From contig JAGHCZ010000075.1 of NCBI GenBank assembly GCA_021160205.1, positions 1 through 6,235 on the forward strand: a DNA stretch of 6,235 nt, read 5' to 3'. This stretch comes from Nitrososphaerota archaeon. Its GTDB lineage: Archaea > Thermoproteota > Nitrososphaeria_A > Caldarchaeales > Wolframiiraptoraceae. The notes under the pieces were generated by a model. The model was not told where the DNA came from and did not search any database. It saw nothing but the letters and a program-made list of their open reading frames with translations. How positions within the stretch are numbered: position 1 is the first letter of the stretch; the number at the start of each line of letters is the position of its first letter. The position numbers and the translations under genes were made by a program. Below, one piece after another: positions 263-6,235 of this stretch.

Positions 263-922
263 TTAGATGGGCCATTTCTCCATGCGATAAGCCATGTCCC
301 AGAACATGTATTCGTATTTGCTCGCTGTAATGAATATTCTCTCCAGCTTTTCGCGGCTTTCTTGGGCGGCCATCTCGTTGACAAATGCTTTCAACTCGTT
401 GACCAAATCTAGGTACTCTTTTGTGGTGTATACTTTTGCCCATTCCACGTAGATCTCGTTTCGATTGCGTTCCAGTTTGTCTTTGTGTTTTGACGCTATT
501 TCGGCGTAGCTCCAGAAACACGGCAACACCGCTACGAGTCCTTCTAATGGCGAGCCTAGGGCGCACGTTGTCAGCAGGAAGTTCATGTAGGCGGTGTTTG
601 TGGGCGATGGATCAACCCTTACAACGTCTTCAAGCCTCATTCCGAGTTTATCGAGGAGCCTCTCGTAATTAGCCATCTCCGTGGTCGCCTCTGTGTACGC
701 TAGTTCAAGCGTCTTGCGGGCCAATGGATACTCCGCCTTGGAGGCTATGAGGCTGAAGCACTTATACATCGTGACCAAATAGTTGTAGTCCTGAATCACA
801 TAATACCTGAACTTCTCGGAGGGTAGCGCTCCCGAGTAGAGCTCCACCACGAAAGGATGTTTGAGGATCGCCCTCCATATATGGTTCGCTGAATGCCTCA
901 GCTTCTCGGCAAGTCCAGCCAT
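263..922 (-). CDS. tenA: TenA family aminopyrimidine aminohydrolase (thiaminase II type)
   Basis: A soluble all-helical protein of 219 residues, normal length for TenA. The family hydrolyses aminomethyl-pyrimidine breakdown products of thiamin to hydroxymethylpyrimidine for salvage, and can cleave thiamin itself. Residues matching the Bacillus TenA active site are all present at nearly the same numbers: Asp45 and Tyr48 in QDYNYL, Tyr112 in SPTNTAYMNFL, nucleophile Cys135 and Tyr139 in LPCFWSYAEIA, Tyr165 in EWAKVYTTKEY, and Glu204 in SKYEYMFWDMAY. It therefore belongs to the cysteine-containing (TenA_C) class and should be active. The start at 922 is supported by a TATA box 25 bases upstream and the lack of a Shine-Dalgarno site, which suggests a leaderless transcript. 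kptA follows after 8 bases. No other thiamin gene and no TPP riboswitch is visible in the window. Confidence 0.95.
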   Translation of the reverse strand: MAGLAEKLRHSANHIWRAILKHPFVVELYSGALPSEKFRYYVIQDYNYLVTMYKCFSLIASKAEYPLARKTLELAYTEATTEMANYERLLDKLGMRLEDVVRVDPSPTNTAYMNFLLTTCALGSPLEGLVAVLPCFWSYAEIASKHKDKLERNRNEIYVEWAKVYTTKEYLDLVNELKAFVNEMAAQESREKLERIFITASKYEYMFWDMAYRMEKWPI

Positions 923-1071: not shown

Positions 1072-1470
1072 TTACTGCTGCATTTGATACCGGAATCTGT
1101 CGATCTCGATGTCGCCGCTAAACACCCTCATTAAGAGATAGAGATATTTCGTTGTGTAAAATTTTTCCCGCCTCGGCTCCCTTCTTCTCAAATCTCCTCT
1201 CGCTCTCACGTCGATTTCAACTGCTCCCTTTTCGCTGAGAAGTTTTTCCGCGTCTGCTAGCGCGCTTTGAAGCTCTCCGACCTCGTCGAATTGGAGACCT
1301 CTGAGGCTCCATAGGCCCATGAGGGTGTCTTTTAGCTCGCTTTCCCAAGCCGATCCATATGAGAGGAGAAGCGCCTTGAGCACGTCGACCGCCGCTTTAC
1401 TCACGATATCTTTTACGTGCCTCCCGACAAGATCCAGAATGAATTTTTCGGCATCCTCGCTCAGCCGCAT
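1072..1470 (-). CDS. Hypothetical protein, 132 residues, possible winged-helix fold
   Basis: I do not recognise the family. The sequence is helix-rich and charged. Residues about 1-60 would form helices with alternating hydrophobic positions. Residues about 60-80 (DEVGELQSALADAEKLLSEKG) look like a long amphipathic helix, followed by a strand-turn-strand-like stretch (AVEIDVRARGDLRRR, about 83-97) that could be a wing. An Arg/Lys-rich linker (REPRREK) and a final hydrophobic helix (YTTKYLYLLMRVF) follow. Strong periodicity and codon use like its neighbours support a real gene. A TGA lies immediately before the ATG at 1470 in the same frame, so the start cannot be further upstream. The purine stretch GGTGA abuts the ATG, too close for a standard ribosome-binding site. 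A DNA- or RNA-binding role is only a guess from the wing-like pattern and basic patch. Confidence 0.75.
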   Translation of the reverse strand: MRLSEDAEKFILDLVGRHVKDIVSKAAVDVLKALLLSYGSAWESELKDTLMGLWSLRGLQFDEVGELQSALADAEKLLSEKGAVEIDVRARGDLRRREPRREKFYTTKYLYLLMRVFSGDIEIDRFRYQMQQ

Positions 1471-1588: not shown

Positions 1589-1617
1589 GCTCTCCCCTAC
1601 ATGGGAGTTTATAGGAT

Positions 1618-1627
1618 AGGAGAGAGG
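1618..1627 (+). promoter_or_regulatory. Shine-Dalgarno site for the Nudix gene
   Basis: The purine run AGGAGAGAGG contains AGGAG (1618-1622), ending 8 bases before the ATG at 1631. It selects that codon over the in-frame ATG at 1601, which has no such site in front of it and probably lies upstream of the transcript start. Confidence 0.65.
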
Positions 1628-1630
1628 CGC

Positions 1631-2104
1631 ATGGAGATGCTGGAAGAAACCTCTGCAGGCGCAGTTCTATTCTACCTTAACAGGCTCATCGAATATCTTT
1701 TACTCCACTACGAAGCTGGTCACTGGGATTTCCCGAAGGGCGCGATCGAGCCCGGAGAAACCGAGATCGACACGGTTAAGCGGGAGGTGTGGGAGGAGAC
1801 TGGGATAAGGAACATAGAGATGGTGCCGGGATTTAGGAAGATCATCCGATACTTTTATCGCAAATCGAGGCACCTCGTCAGGAAAACCGTCATCTTCTAT
1901 TTGGCGAGAGCACCGACCAAAGATGTCACCCTCTCTTACGAGCACGTAGGTTATATCTGGCTAGACTACGAGAACGCCATGAGAAAGCTTACCTTCAAGA
2001 CCGCGAGAGACACGCTTCGAGAAGCACACCAATTCTTACTCGAGAACTACCTTCCATCCCACCAGTCAAGGCTCCAAGACCACGTGGTGAAAGGGGATGA
2101 ATAA
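1631..2104 (+). CDS. Nudix hydrolase, diadenosine tetraphosphate (Ap4A) hydrolase type
   Basis: A cytoplasmic protein of 157 residues from the chosen start at 1631; an in-frame ATG at 1601 would add ten residues but lies before the inferred transcript start. The complete Nudix box GX5EX7REUXEEXGU spans residues 37-59, with metal-binding Glu52, Glu55 and Glu56 (REVWEE). The preceding HWDFPKG (31-37) and the later SYEHVGYIWLDYENAMRKLTF-like segment (about 102-122) are typical of asymmetric dinucleoside tetraphosphate hydrolases, which split Ap4A into ATP and AMP. Other nucleotide substrates cannot be excluded from the sequence alone. The C-terminal tail (about 138-157) is polar. The gene ends inside the next one: its TAA overlaps the first 8 bases of the surface-protein gene, so the two are probably translationally coupled despite their unrelated cell locations. 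Confidence 0.92.
   Translation: MEMLEETSAGAVLFYLNRLIEYLLLHYEAGHWDFPKGAIEPGETEIDTVKREVWEETGIRNIEMVPGFRKIIRYFYRKSRHLVRKTVIFYLARAPTKDVTLSYEHVGYIWLDYENAMRKLTFKTARDTLREAHQFLLENYLPSHQSRLQDHVVKGDE
2086..2090 (+). promoter_or_regulatory. Shine-Dalgarno site for the surface-protein gene
   Basis: GGTGA within the last codons of the Nudix gene ends 6 bases before the ATG at 2097. It complements the archaeal 16S rRNA 3' end and supports the overlapping start. Confidence 0.6.
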
Positions 2105-3824
2105 GCTCGCTTCCACCGCGTTTATCTTCATCTTAGCTTTGAGTATGATCGCAGTGCAGTCGCTAGTATCTGCTCAGGCGGAAGCAACATTGGTCGTGAA
2201 GGTGGTGACGCCGCGGGGGGAACCGCTGAAAAATTTTGAGGTACACCTGGTCAAGGGCGCGGAGACGCGGAGGTTCGTGACGAACTCGACTGGATATGCA
2301 GACTTTAAGCATCTACCGCCTGGAGAGTACCGTGTAGAAGTGAAGCTCGGGAACATCACCCTAGCGGGAGAAACCGTTAAAGTCCCCGATCAACGCGAAA
2401 TAACCTTAACGGCGCTCATAGCCTCAGTTAAGCTGAAGCTATTAAACTCCGATGAAAAGCCCGTTAAAGGACTTGTAGTGAGCCTGCGAAGCGAAACAGG
2501 ATCGTATAACTCGACCGCCGAATCCGATGAAAAGGGGTATGCATCGTTTAGCCAGGTTCCATATAGCGAGCTTGAACAAGTTGGAGACTACGTCCTCGAA
2601 GTACGCAAAAACTCGCTCACCCTTTATCGGGAAGACCTCAAGATCAACGATCCGGAAATCTCGAAAAACATCGTTCTCCCATTAATCGATGTGAATTTAA
2701 CGATAACTAACTTAGAAGGTGAGCCGGTTCCAAAAATTACTGTGAAGCTAAGTTCCGAGGCATATACGGAGCGTAAAACATCCCTGAACGGAACGGTTTC
2801 ATTCGAAAGCATCCCCTCCTCTGAAGTGGAAGGCGTAGGAGCGTATAGAATAAACGTGACCATGAGAACCGCTGCGGGAGACCTGTCAATTCACAGCGAG
2901 AAGAGGGCCTTCAAGTCGAGTCAATCGCTGTCGATAGTCGCGGATTTAGCGAGGCTTCGAGTTGAGCTGATAGACGACGAGGGGAAGCCCATTAAGGGCG
3001 CTAAGATCATATTAAGCAGCGACTTATCGAAGAATTTCACCTCAGCGGAAACCAACAGCAAGGGAGTCGCCGAATTCAGGAACATACCCCTGAGCTTCGG
3101 AGAAATCAAGGCTGGAAAATACGCGGTAAAGGCGTTTAGAGCTGGAAAGCTTATAGGAGAAACCGAATGCGAAGTATCGGATCCCGTGGAGACGGTTAAG
3201 TTAATCGCGGAGAGGAAGAGCGTCGCTATCAAGATCACGGATTTCCGTGGAAGACCCTTGGCCAACTACGCGATCAAGCTGATCGACGAAAAGAGCGGAG
3301 AAGAATTCGAAGCGCAAACAAATGATAAGGGCGAAGCCGCGTTCAAGCTCTTCTACGGAGCGTACGATATGCAAATCTTGAAGGATGAAGAGCTGGTATA
3401 TTCGGAGCCGGTGCAAATTAAAGAAGAAACTCTGGACATAAGCTTGAAAAGCGTCAACTTCCCGTTCACGATAATAGTTCTAGACGCATTCGAGAACCCC
3501 GTGAAATCCGCGTCGGTAAAAATCTTAATGGAAAACAAGACCCTACTCGAATCCAAGTTAAACGGGGAACCTCTAAGCATAGAGCTTCCGCGCCCAGCCC
3601 ACCTCTACTGCGACGTATACGCACCTAGCGGCGAGCTTATTCAAAGGACCAGCTTTTACAGCTCCGGCCCCGGAGTCAAAGAAGTCAAGCTCGGGGACTT
3701 CGTCGACTTCAACGGACTCGTGCCTATAGAAAACTTCGCCGCGATCATAGCCGCGGGAATAGCCGCTCTGAGTATAATCGCCTTTTTCGCCATACTGTAC
3801 AGCCGAGCGAGGGCAAAAGGCTAA
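2097..3824 (+). CDS. Secreted, membrane-anchored protein with six carboxypeptidase-regulatory/Ig-like repeats
   Basis: The 575-residue product begins with a signal peptide: Lys3, a hydrophobic core at about 7-21 (AFIFILALSMIAVQS) and a probable cleavage near VSAQA (24-28). Six beta-sandwich-like repeats fill about 31-535. Each opens with a strand, a turn around a conserved proline (43, 122, 210, 298, 387, 468; spacing 79-89), then a G-x-A-x-F-type strand and usually a G-x-Y strand. These features suggest CarboxypepD_reg/transthyretin-like folds. Eight N-x-S/T sequons (for example at 63, 138, 200, 253, 313 and 480) suit N-glycosylation outside the cell. A single transmembrane helix at about 547-568 and the basic tail RARAKG place the C-terminus in the cytoplasm. 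Only two cysteines occur (358, 505). No catalytic motif is visible; a stalk, adhesin or envelope-scaffold role is inference. The gene ends with tandem TAA codons. Confidence 0.9.
   Translation: MNKLASTAFIFILALSMIAVQSLVSAQAEATLVVKVVTPRGEPLKNFEVHLVKGAETRRFVTNSTGYADFKHLPPGEYRVEVKLGNITLAGETVKVPDQREITLTALIASVKLKLLNSDEKPVKGLVVSLRSETGSYNSTAESDEKGYASFSQVPYSELEQVGDYVLEVRKNSLTLYREDLKINDPEISKNIVLPLIDVNLTITNLEGEPVPKITVKLSSEAYTERKTSLNGTVSFESIPSSEVEGVGAYRINVTMRTAAGDLSIHSEKRAFKSSQSLSIVADLARLRVELIDDEGKPIKGAKIILSSDLSKNFTSAETNSKGVAEFRNIPLSFGEIKAGKYAVKAFRAGKLIGETECEVSDPVETVKLIAERKSVAIKITDFRGRPLANYAIKLIDEKSGEEFEAQTNDKGEAAFKLFYGAYDMQILKDEELVYSEPVQIKEETLDISLKSVNFPFTIIVLDAFENPVKSASVKILMENKTLLESKLNGEPLSIELPRPAHLYCDVYAPSGELIQRTSFYSSGPGVKEVKLGDFVDFNGLVPIENFAAIIAAGIAALSIIAFFAILYSRARAKG
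2187..3701 (+). repeat. Six tandem protein-level repeats of about 80-90 residues
   Basis: Repeat units start near residues 31, 110, 198, 286, 374 and 455 of the surface protein. Shared landmarks are a turn of the form (E/R)G-x-P(L/V/I) near the start (GEPLK, EKPVKG, EGEPVPK, EGKPIKG, RGRPLAN, FENPVKS), a middle motif such as TGYADF, KGYASF, NGTVSF, KGVAEF or KGEAAF, and in most units a G(E/D/A/K)Y strand. Unit 6 is the most diverged and lacks the middle motif. Repeats 2 to 4 are the most alike in spacing (88 residues). The similarity is at the protein level; no long identical DNA repeats stand out, so the duplication is old. Confidence 0.75.
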
Positions 3825-3857
3825 TAACCTAGCTACCGGACTCAGTATTGAGCGTCG

Positions 3858-4190
3858 TTGGCGCAGCGTGGCGCGGGCCCCGAAAAGGAGCCCAAATGGA
3901 CGTTAAGCAGAAACCCTACGCAAATCTGCAATCCGCAATGTAGATATTTTAGATGTGGAAGAAAGCTGCTGAACTATAAGCGTAACCCCCCTTGGTGCAA
4001 TTGGGTCGGAGCCCCCTGCATCGGATACAAGTGCCCTTATGCCTACTGCGTGCAGATGAAGCTCCTGCCGGACGGGCGATGCGCCCTCTTCGTCAAGAGG
4101 AAGACGGAGGAGACGGAGCAGCTTGAGGCGGGATTCAAGATCGGCGCGCCTGAGAAAGTGAGGAAAAAGCTCGACAAGCTTGGGATTTAG
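3858..4190 (+). CDS. Small cysteine-rich protein, probable metal binding, function unknown
   Basis: A 110-residue basic protein that I do not recognise. Eight cysteines lie at 24, 28, 33, 47, 54, 59, 64 and 75, with spacing C-x3-C-x4-C-x13-C-x6-C-x4-C-x4-C-x10-C, and no signal peptide precedes them. In a cytoplasmic protein this suggests zinc or iron-sulfur binding; eight ligands could hold two sites. Aromatic and basic residues fall among the cysteines (CRYFRCGRK, PPWCNW, CPYAYC), and the tail from about 80 is a charged helix (KRKTEETEQLE, then PEKVRKKLDKLG). A TGA at 3849-3851 limits the frame, and the only start codon before the cysteine core is TTG at 3858, with no clear ribosome-binding site. 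It follows the surface gene by 33 bases with no terminator seen, so it is probably in the same transcript. Its stop overlaps the convergent permease gene by 4 bases. Confidence 0.8.
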   Translation: MAQRGAGPEKEPKWTLSRNPTQICNPQCRYFRCGRKLLNYKRNPPWCNWVGAPCIGYKCPYAYCVQMKLLPDGRCALFVKRKTEETEQLEAGFKIGAPEKVRKKLDKLGI

Positions 4191-5059
4191 GACCTCGCAA
4201 CTAAGTAGCCTGAGAGGACTATCAAGGCTCCGCCGATTATCGCCAGGCCGCCCATAACTTGATCTAGGAATATCAGTCCGAAGATAGCGGCGCTGAGGGG
4301 CTCGAGATAGGTGAAAACAACGGCCTCCTGGGCTTTAATCAGCCCCAACCCGTAAAAGTACAGGGTGACCGCTAGACTCGTGTTTACCCCGCCTAGGATC
4401 AGGAGGAGAATCCACGACGCGGGCTCGAGGCTCGGGATGTTGGACAAGAGAACGGGCGTTAGAAATAGGGCCGCGAAAAAGTAGGAGTAGAAGGCGATCG
4501 TCAGGCTCGAGAAGCCTCCGCGAAGCTTTTTCGAGACCAAGATAAGGCCAGCATAGCTTAATCCAGCTAGAAGCCCGTAAACCACCCCAAGGAGATTCGA
4601 AATAGAGCCCTCGACGATTCCGCCGTAGGAGATTAGAAGCACTCCTAAGAAGGAAAGAGCCAAAGCGAGCACGGTTAATTTCTCGAGGCGCTCTTTGAGC
4701 AGAGCCGGCGCGAGTGCGGCGGTGAATATCGGGGCCAGGTAGTTGAGGAGGACCGCGTCGGCGATCGGGATGAGCTTCATGGAGGCGAAGAGAAAGACCC
4801 AGCCGAGGCAGAGAAGAAGCCCGTTCAACATCACGAGCTTTAAGCGCCTTGCAGCGGCGAGAAACTCACCTCTCCGAAGGGAGAAAATGAAGGGGGCAAG
4901 GAACAGCGAGGCGAAGAAAACCCTGAAAAACGCGATAACAGAGGCGTTCAACGGGATCAAGTTCACGATGACCCCGTTTGAGCCCCAAACAACGGCGGCG
5001 GTAGCGGCGGCCAAGCATCCGGCGGCCTTCTCGGGAAGCCTCAGACTCCTCGACGGCAT
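4187..5059 (-). CDS. EamA/DMT-superfamily permease, ten transmembrane helices
   Basis: A 290-residue inner-membrane transporter of the drug/metabolite transporter superfamily, built of two homologous five-helix EamA halves (about 12-145 and 155-288). Typical landmarks include WGSN (25-28) in helix 1, an Arg in FFRVFFA (44-50), and the end-of-repeat signatures LNYLAPIFTAAL..LLKERL (about 105-125) and TYLEPLSAAIFGLIFLDQ (250-267). These loops resemble amino-acid or metabolite exporters, but the substrate cannot be read from the sequence. The frame stays open to 5185, yet the start at 5059 is preferred. It gives a short basic N-terminus (MPSRSLRLPEK) before helix 1 and lies about 36 bases from the TATA box at 5091-5098. 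The longer version would add 42 non-membrane residues, overlap valS and begin upstream of its own promoter. Neighbours do not reveal the substrate. Confidence 0.93.
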   Translation of the reverse strand: MPSRSLRLPEKAAGCLAAATAAVVWGSNGVIVNLIPLNASVIAFFRVFFASLFLAPFIFSLRRGEFLAAARRLKLVMLNGLLLCLGWVFLFASMKLIPIADAVLLNYLAPIFTAALAPALLKERLEKLTVLALALSFLGVLLISYGGIVEGSISNLLGVVYGLLAGLSYAGLILVSKKLRGGFSSLTIAFYSYFFAALFLTPVLLSNIPSLEPASWILLLILGGVNTSLAVTLYFYGLGLIKAQEAVVFTYLEPLSAAIFGLIFLDQVMGGLAIIGGALIVLSGYLVARS

Positions 5060-5090
5060 TTTAGCTGATCTTAATTGATTTGCCTTACAG

Positions 5091-5098
5091 TTTAAATA
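5091..5098. promoter_or_regulatory. Near-palindromic TATA box shared by divergent permease and valS genes
   Basis: TTTAAATA on the plus strand is a perfect archaeal TATA match and reads TATTTAAA on the minus strand. Towards valS, a start about 25 bases downstream falls near 5121, giving a leader of about 28 bases. Towards the permease it falls near 5069, giving a leader of about 10 bases. It is the only good TATA candidate in the 89-base gap, so one box may serve both directions. The flanking sequence does not clearly mark a BRE on either side. Confidence 0.5.
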
Positions 5099-5139
5099 GA
5101 CTCCTCCCTTTTTGCTCGTAAGGCAGGGATCTTGGAGCT

Positions 5140-5147
5140 GGGGATGA
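5140..5147 (+). promoter_or_regulatory. Probable ribosome-binding region of valS
   Basis: GGGGATGA just before the ATG at 5149 partly matches the archaeal GGAGGTGA site but is very close to the start; GGAG at 5134-5137 is a second candidate, 11 bases away. The ATG at 5144 inside this stretch is out of frame and reaches TGA after one more codon. Confidence 0.35.
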
Positions 5148-5148
5148 G

Positions 5149-6235
5149 ATGAGCAAGCAGCTTGTCGAGAAGCGTTGGGATCCAAAGCTCGAACTCGAGG
5201 TTTACGAACTCTGGTAAAAGGAGAAGATCTATGATTTCAATCCCAGAAGCCGGAAACCCATCTTCGTGGTGGACACTCCGCCGCCCTATCCATCTGGAAG
5301 GCCGTGGCATATAGGAGCCGCAGCCCACTACTCTCAGATAGATATGATAGCTAGAACTGCGAGAATGATGGGTTATGAAGTCTATTTCCCCATAGGCATA
5401 GATAGGAACGGGCTTCCGGTGGAGATTTATACCGAGAAGACCCGCGGAGTCTCGATCAGAAGCGTTTCCAGGGAGAAATTCCTAGAATTATGCAGAGAAA
5501 CCCTCGACGAGCTAGAAAAGGAAATGATCCAACTCATGAAGAGGATGGGGTTAAGCGGGGACTTCGAGAACTGCTATCGAACGGACTCCGAGGAGTATAG
5601 GAGCCTAACTCAGGCGACCTTCATAGAGCTGTGGAACAGGGGGCTCATCTACTCCGCTACGAGGCCGAATAACTACTGCTGGGAATGCGGGACAACCATC
5701 GCCGATGCGGAGATAGAGTATGAGGAAAGACCTGCCAAGCTCGTTTACATAAAATTCAGGCTCAAAGAAAATGGAGGAGACCTCGTCATCGCGACGACCA
5801 GGCCGGAGCTCCTCGCCGCATGTCAAGCGGTGATCGTCAATCCCGAAGACGAGAGATATGCGCATCTCCACGGAAAACACGTGATAGTCCCGATATACGA
5901 GCGAGAGGTCGAGATAATCCCTCATCCAGCCGCTAAACCCGAATTTGGAACCGGCGCGGTAATGATCTGCAGCTACGGAGACTACACCGATGTCCTATTG
6001 TTCCGAGAACTGGGGCTGAAGGAGATCGTCGCGATAAACACGAACGGCAAGATGACCGAGGCAGCTGGAAAGTACGCCGGAATGAGCATCGAAGAAGCGA
6101 GGAAGGCGATAACCGAGGATTTGATGGCGATGGGACTTGTAGTGAAGATGGAGGACATAATGCATCGAACCCCGATCTGCGAAAGAAGCAAAACCCCGAT
6201 CGAGATCATTCCCATGCAAGACTACTACCTGAAGC
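5149..6235 (+). CDS. valS: Valyl-tRNA synthetase, archaeal type, N-terminal part; in-frame TAA at codon 23; 3' end outside window
   Basis: Class Ia synthetase that charges tRNA-Val; about 360 of roughly 800 codons are present. Numbering from the ATG at 5149: residues 1-22 (MSKQLVEKRWDPKLELEVYE...) are the family N-terminus, codon 23 is TAA, and similarity resumes at once in the same frame (KEKIYDFNP). The catalytic nucleotide-binding segment DTPPPYPSGRPWHIGA (42-57) has HIGA where many class I enzymes have HIGH, followed by DRNGLPVEIYTEK. A Cys-x2-Cys pair (177, 180) lies in YCWECGTT. The CP1 editing domain shows ATTRPELL (215-222) and GTGAVMICSYGDYTD. The later CERSKTPIE (344-352) matches archaeal ValRS; KMSKS and the anticodon domain are outside. 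No good in-frame start exists between the TAA and the catalytic motif, except GTG at 5266, which would remove the N-terminus. The enzyme identity is firm; whether the gene is intact is not. Confidence 0.9.
5215..5217 (+). other. In-frame TAA within the valS coding sequence
   Basis: The codon after ...EVYELW and before KEKIYDFNP is TAA. Both flanks fit the ValRS N-terminus in the same frame, so a single base substitution (for example from GAA, AAA or CAA) explains it better than an indel. TAA also ends tenA, the 132-residue gene, the Nudix gene, the surface gene and the permease, so it is a normal stop codon in this genome. Confidence 0.85.

Follow-up and report, generated by a model that had tools for sequence, protein, structure and literature searches.

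The window, the whole 6,235-nucleotide stretch that was analyzed and apparently a complete contig, carries a valine--tRNA ligase (ValRS) gene, valS, that is cut by the contig end, six neighboring genes and, at the left edge, a partial Tpt1/KptA gene that was left out of the six-gene counts given here (Table 1). Five of the six neighboring genes end in TAA and one ends in TAG, and no internal stop was found in any of the six. The last bases of the NUDIX gene are also the first bases of the gene for a 575-amino-acid repeat protein (positions 2097 to 2104), and the stops of the convergent genes for a cysteine-rich protein and an EamA-type transporter overlap at positions 4187 to 4190.

Table 1. 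Features of the window
Feature	Position	Strand	Remarks
Neighboring gene	263-922	-	ends in TAA
Neighboring gene, 132-aa protein	1072-1470	-	ends in TAA
Neighboring gene, NUDIX	1601-2104	+	ends in TAA
Neighboring gene, 575-aa repeat protein	2097-3824	+	ends in TAA
Neighboring gene, 110-aa cysteine-rich protein	3858-4190	+	ends in TAG
Neighboring gene, EamA-type transporter	ending at 4187	-	ends in TAA
TATA-box-like element TTTAAATAG upstream of valS	5091..5099	+	kept in L001 and L002; putative promoter element
GGAG	5134..5137	+	possible ribosome-binding site for ATG 5149
valS (valine--tRNA ligase) frame, cut by contig end	5149..6235	+	ATG 5149; ValRS model matches from 5218; 359/362 identity with P0123
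In-frame TAA, codon 23	5215..5217	+	Gln in P0123 and P0122; sense codon in 80/80 loci
GTG, first in-frame ATG/GTG/TTG after TAA	5266..5268	+	restart possible but unlikely
WHIG, class I HIGH-type signature	5305..5316	+	frame residues 53-56

Several of the neighboring genes have features of their own. The 575-amino-acid protein contains Ig-like/carboxypeptidase-regulatory repeats and, as judged by eye, has an apparent signal sequence and a C-terminal membrane segment; of 7993 scored candidates, 22 proteins, itself included, reached an E value of 0.001 or better. The cysteine-rich protein (110 amino acids, TTG start) has relatives with the same start codon and the same place in the gene order in loci from Candidatus Wolframiiraptor (L001) and Aigarchaeota SKYB129 (L002), and no Pfam or NCBIfam match was obtained for it at E 0.001. 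The 132-amino-acid protein had no Pfam match; inspection of L001 by eye revealed a likely relative (1838-2248) that lies upstream of the NUDIX gene there.

The identity of valS was evaluated with protein family models. The part after the stop was matched by ValRS model NF009687.0 with an E value of 6.5e-138 (461 bits), versus 155 bits for the best IleRS model, and ValRS models outscored the models for IleRS, LeuRS and MetRS, as is characteristic of a class Ia valine--tRNA ligase. The cutoffs of the whole-protein models were not reached, a natural consequence of the contig ending within the gene. The frame includes WHIG at residue 53, which we take to be the HIGH signature of class I synthetases. 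A KMSKS loop is present in the homologue P0123, and the corresponding part of the window gene falls beyond the contig end. We regard the window gene as a normal valS of the archaeal type.

The preliminary description of this DNA had reported a premature TAA at codon 23 of an otherwise open valS, and this was confirmed. From ATG 5149, 22 open codons lead up to the TAA and 339 follow it, and no second internal stop was found up to the window edge; the contig ends 1018 bases past the TAA. Both sides of the TAA align with the ValRS of relatives, so the open frame is not a product of chance.

A protein search with the full-length ValRS of L002 as the query recovered P0123, a ValRS of 774 amino acids that differs from the window frame at only 3 of 362 positions: the stop, where P0123 has glutamine, R164K, and K348N. 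P0123 is encoded on a contig of 3240 bases, and its cluster comprises 9 member sequences. An earlier search with a 339-amino-acid query had covered proteins 0.55 to 1.75 times the query length and missed full-length ValRS. P0122, which is 91% identical, likewise has glutamine at the codon 23 position. As P0123 was compared as a protein, the comparison gives the glutamine but not its codon; a change from a glutamine codon to TAA takes one substitution. This near-identity means that a sequence of this species, or of one very close to it, carries an ordinary residue at codon 23. The window agrees with L001, L002, and P0122 at positions 164 and 348, which indicates that the contig is not generally error-rich.

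Among 240 listed ValRS homologues, 234 cover the codon 23 position; one of these has a gap there and the other 233 have a residue. However, predicted proteins hold no stops, and stop-free database proteins are by themselves weak evidence; the main weight was therefore placed on comparisons of DNA and on the near-identity of P0123. At the DNA level, a sense codon was present at the aligned position in 80 of 80 loci (the best 80 of 126 stretches encoding a relative), with GAA in L001 and GAG in L002. The valS loci of 22 genomes of the family gave the same result: all 21 that cover codon 23 have a sense codon there, several of these loci also being among the 80, and the remaining one (G022) begins at a contig edge past codon 23. 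A 27-letter pattern across the codon had no match in viral contigs.

Of the genomes compared, the closest are those of Candidatus Wolframiiraptor and relatives in the Caldarchaeales, and L001 ranks first among them (protein identity of 89.8% across the 362 codons of the valS frame and DNA identity of 80%). When 44 genomes of the order, the family included, were searched with the valS DNA, 41 were matched. The best match had 80% DNA identity over most of the query, and a 104-base piece in genome G001 had 86%. On these identities, none of the 44 genomes appears to be the species of the window.

We consider it likely that the TAA is an isolated base error, or a minor and unfixed variant, in the consensus of one contig. 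The TAA would be a single-base difference from a glutamine codon, probably introduced by a sequencing, library-damage, or assembly error or by a minor variant that entered the consensus at this place, some 1 kb short of where the contig ends. In the cells, full-length ValRS of the ordinary kind would most likely be translated from ATG 5149. We infer both the wrong or minority base call and glutamine as the lost codon. The preliminary description had preferred an assembly or sequencing error, a preference that the glutamine in P0123 and the sense codons in all 80 loci support. What speaks against an error is that the contig is otherwise clean and that divergence from L001 is higher over the first 22 codons (pN 0.232, versus 0.111 between L001 and L002, over a stretch that is short and variable).

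Further properties of the contig bear on how such a change could have arisen. A chimeric contig was considered and rejected; a single alignment to L001 spans positions 3783 to 6233 across the TAA. Only 155 of the 3258 one-step changes that are available in the valS frame make a stop; had the whole contig been equally prone to error, many more differences would therefore be expected than were seen. Because the finding was picked for being a stop, a single isolated event, whether error or mutation, fits these numbers equally well.

It is conceivable that the event was a true recent nonsense mutation. Part of the population would then carry a dead-end or weakly viable allele, and the remaining cells of the species would have an intact valS. 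A TAA one substitution away from a glutamine codon, glutamine in both P0123 and P0122, and six neighboring genes with no other lesion are exactly the picture expected from such a mutation. However, ValRS is essential, and an allele of this kind would be expected at low frequency and would be unlikely to prevail in a consensus. Furthermore, a single ValRS match at 72% identity or above was obtained in each of the 22 family genomes, G001 having a second piece in addition. This second piece looks like the same gene split in the assembly: contigs C65 (L001) and C90 (L111) overlap by 299 bases inside valS, at the contig ends, and the identity of 98.0% in the overlap suggests strain variation that broke the assembly. 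We regard a recent nonsense mutation as a distinct but unlikely possibility.

Older decay can be evaluated from the constraint on the frame. After the stop, comparison of valS with L001 gave a pN of 0.052 and a pS of 0.665, the latter near saturation, and the frame in this part is under strong constraint. No sign of old decay was seen in valS: in addition to the low pN, the TATA-like box and the gene order are kept. The further lesions, relaxed constraint, or lost promoter by which a pseudogene is recognized were not found in the window copy. This evidence disfavors an old pseudogene but does not count against a recent mutation.

That the window copy is the decaying paralogue of another, intact valS in the same genome seems extremely unlikely. 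A single ValRS locus was seen in each of the 22 family genomes, whose completeness is unstated; matches of 28 to 35% identity were taken as other class I synthetases. The gene order around the window copy is common to L001 and L002, which marks it as the native locus, and the nearly identical P0123 is open.

Initiation downstream of the stop, at GTG 5266, would yield a ValRS without its first 39 residues. The GTG is in frame and lies upstream of WHIG. However, a restart there would lose W10, E15, and W22, which are present in 231, 234, and 233, respectively, of the 234 homologues covering this part. The alignment with the solved ValRS 1gax begins at query residue 8, and the segment of the first 39 residues thus belongs to the known enzyme. 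Nor was a ribosome-binding-like sequence seen by eye in the 15 bases before the GTG. Such a restart is very unlikely.

The starts of the homologues were also compared. A DTPPPY-like motif was found near the start in 235 of the 240, and in 2 of these 235 it is preceded by fewer than 30 residues (P0068, 590 amino acids, and P0113, 286 amino acids). Four of the remaining five (P0072, P0078, P0109, and P0116) begin after the motif and hence are without the HIGH region; in the fifth, P0099, the N-terminal part is present and the motif was not found near its start. P0109 (317 amino acids) and P0116 (441 amino acids) are shortened ValRS calls that begin after the HIGH region on contigs of more than 240 kb, which indicates that shortened valS calls do occur elsewhere.

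Programmed read-through, recoding of the UAA, or RNA editing at codon 23 might be considered because the frame continues cleanly past the TAA. However, P0123 has a plain glutamine at this position, and the neighboring genes, with their five TAA terminators and lack of internal stops, give no hint of an altered reading of TAA. A stop under programmed read-through is expected to be conserved in relatives, whereas the 80 aligned loci all have a sense codon. It is also expected to be followed by a stimulatory RNA structure, but the RNA around the TAA folds no better than shuffled sequences (z-scores of -0.32 and -0.43, with 71 and 65 of 200 shuffles folding at least as well). Any of these three mechanisms is extremely improbable. 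General reassignment of TAA, which the preliminary description had excluded, should appear as TAA used as a sense codon in several genes and not as a terminator; the neighboring genes show the reverse and lend such a reassignment no support. A TAA that is real and fixed in the lineage, with ValRS production maintained through a restart at GTG 5266 or efficient UAA suppression, is likewise highly improbable. If this were true, it would be a rare natural case of a tolerated nonsense codon in an essential gene.

Irregular valS genes were encountered in other archaeal metagenome-assembled genomes (MAGs). The valS of an Aenigmatarchaeota MAG (L036, about 6076-6099) seems to contain some 6 inserted codons, including an in-frame stop, next to the HIGH-type motif; elsewhere the aligned frame is open, and the insertion is possibly an assembly artefact. 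The valS of a Nitrososphaerales MAG (L025, about 6553-6699) has about 49 additional residues, inserted in frame and of low complexity (Ser/Asn/Ile).

The window valS belongs to the same family as the archaeal-type valine--tRNA ligases (NF009687.0/TIGR00422.1). The loci from Candidatus Wolframiiraptor (L001, L003, L005, and L006) and Aigarchaeota SKYB129 (L002) encode proteins with 84.8 to 89.8% identity to the window frame, but all five have a sense codon at position 23, where the window has TAA. L001 and L002 also have the gene order of the window: NUDIX, repeat protein, cysteine-rich protein, EamA-type transporter, valS. Isolated nonsense errors or alleles in draft assemblies are a known general kind; a literature search for them returned no paper that matched all the queried terms together. 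The case presented here advises caution: a lone stop in an unfinished contig should not be equated with recoding or gene loss when near-identical sequence is open at that position. The window resembles these isolated errors and alleles in that it likewise has one in-frame stop, in an otherwise intact essential gene, on one contig.
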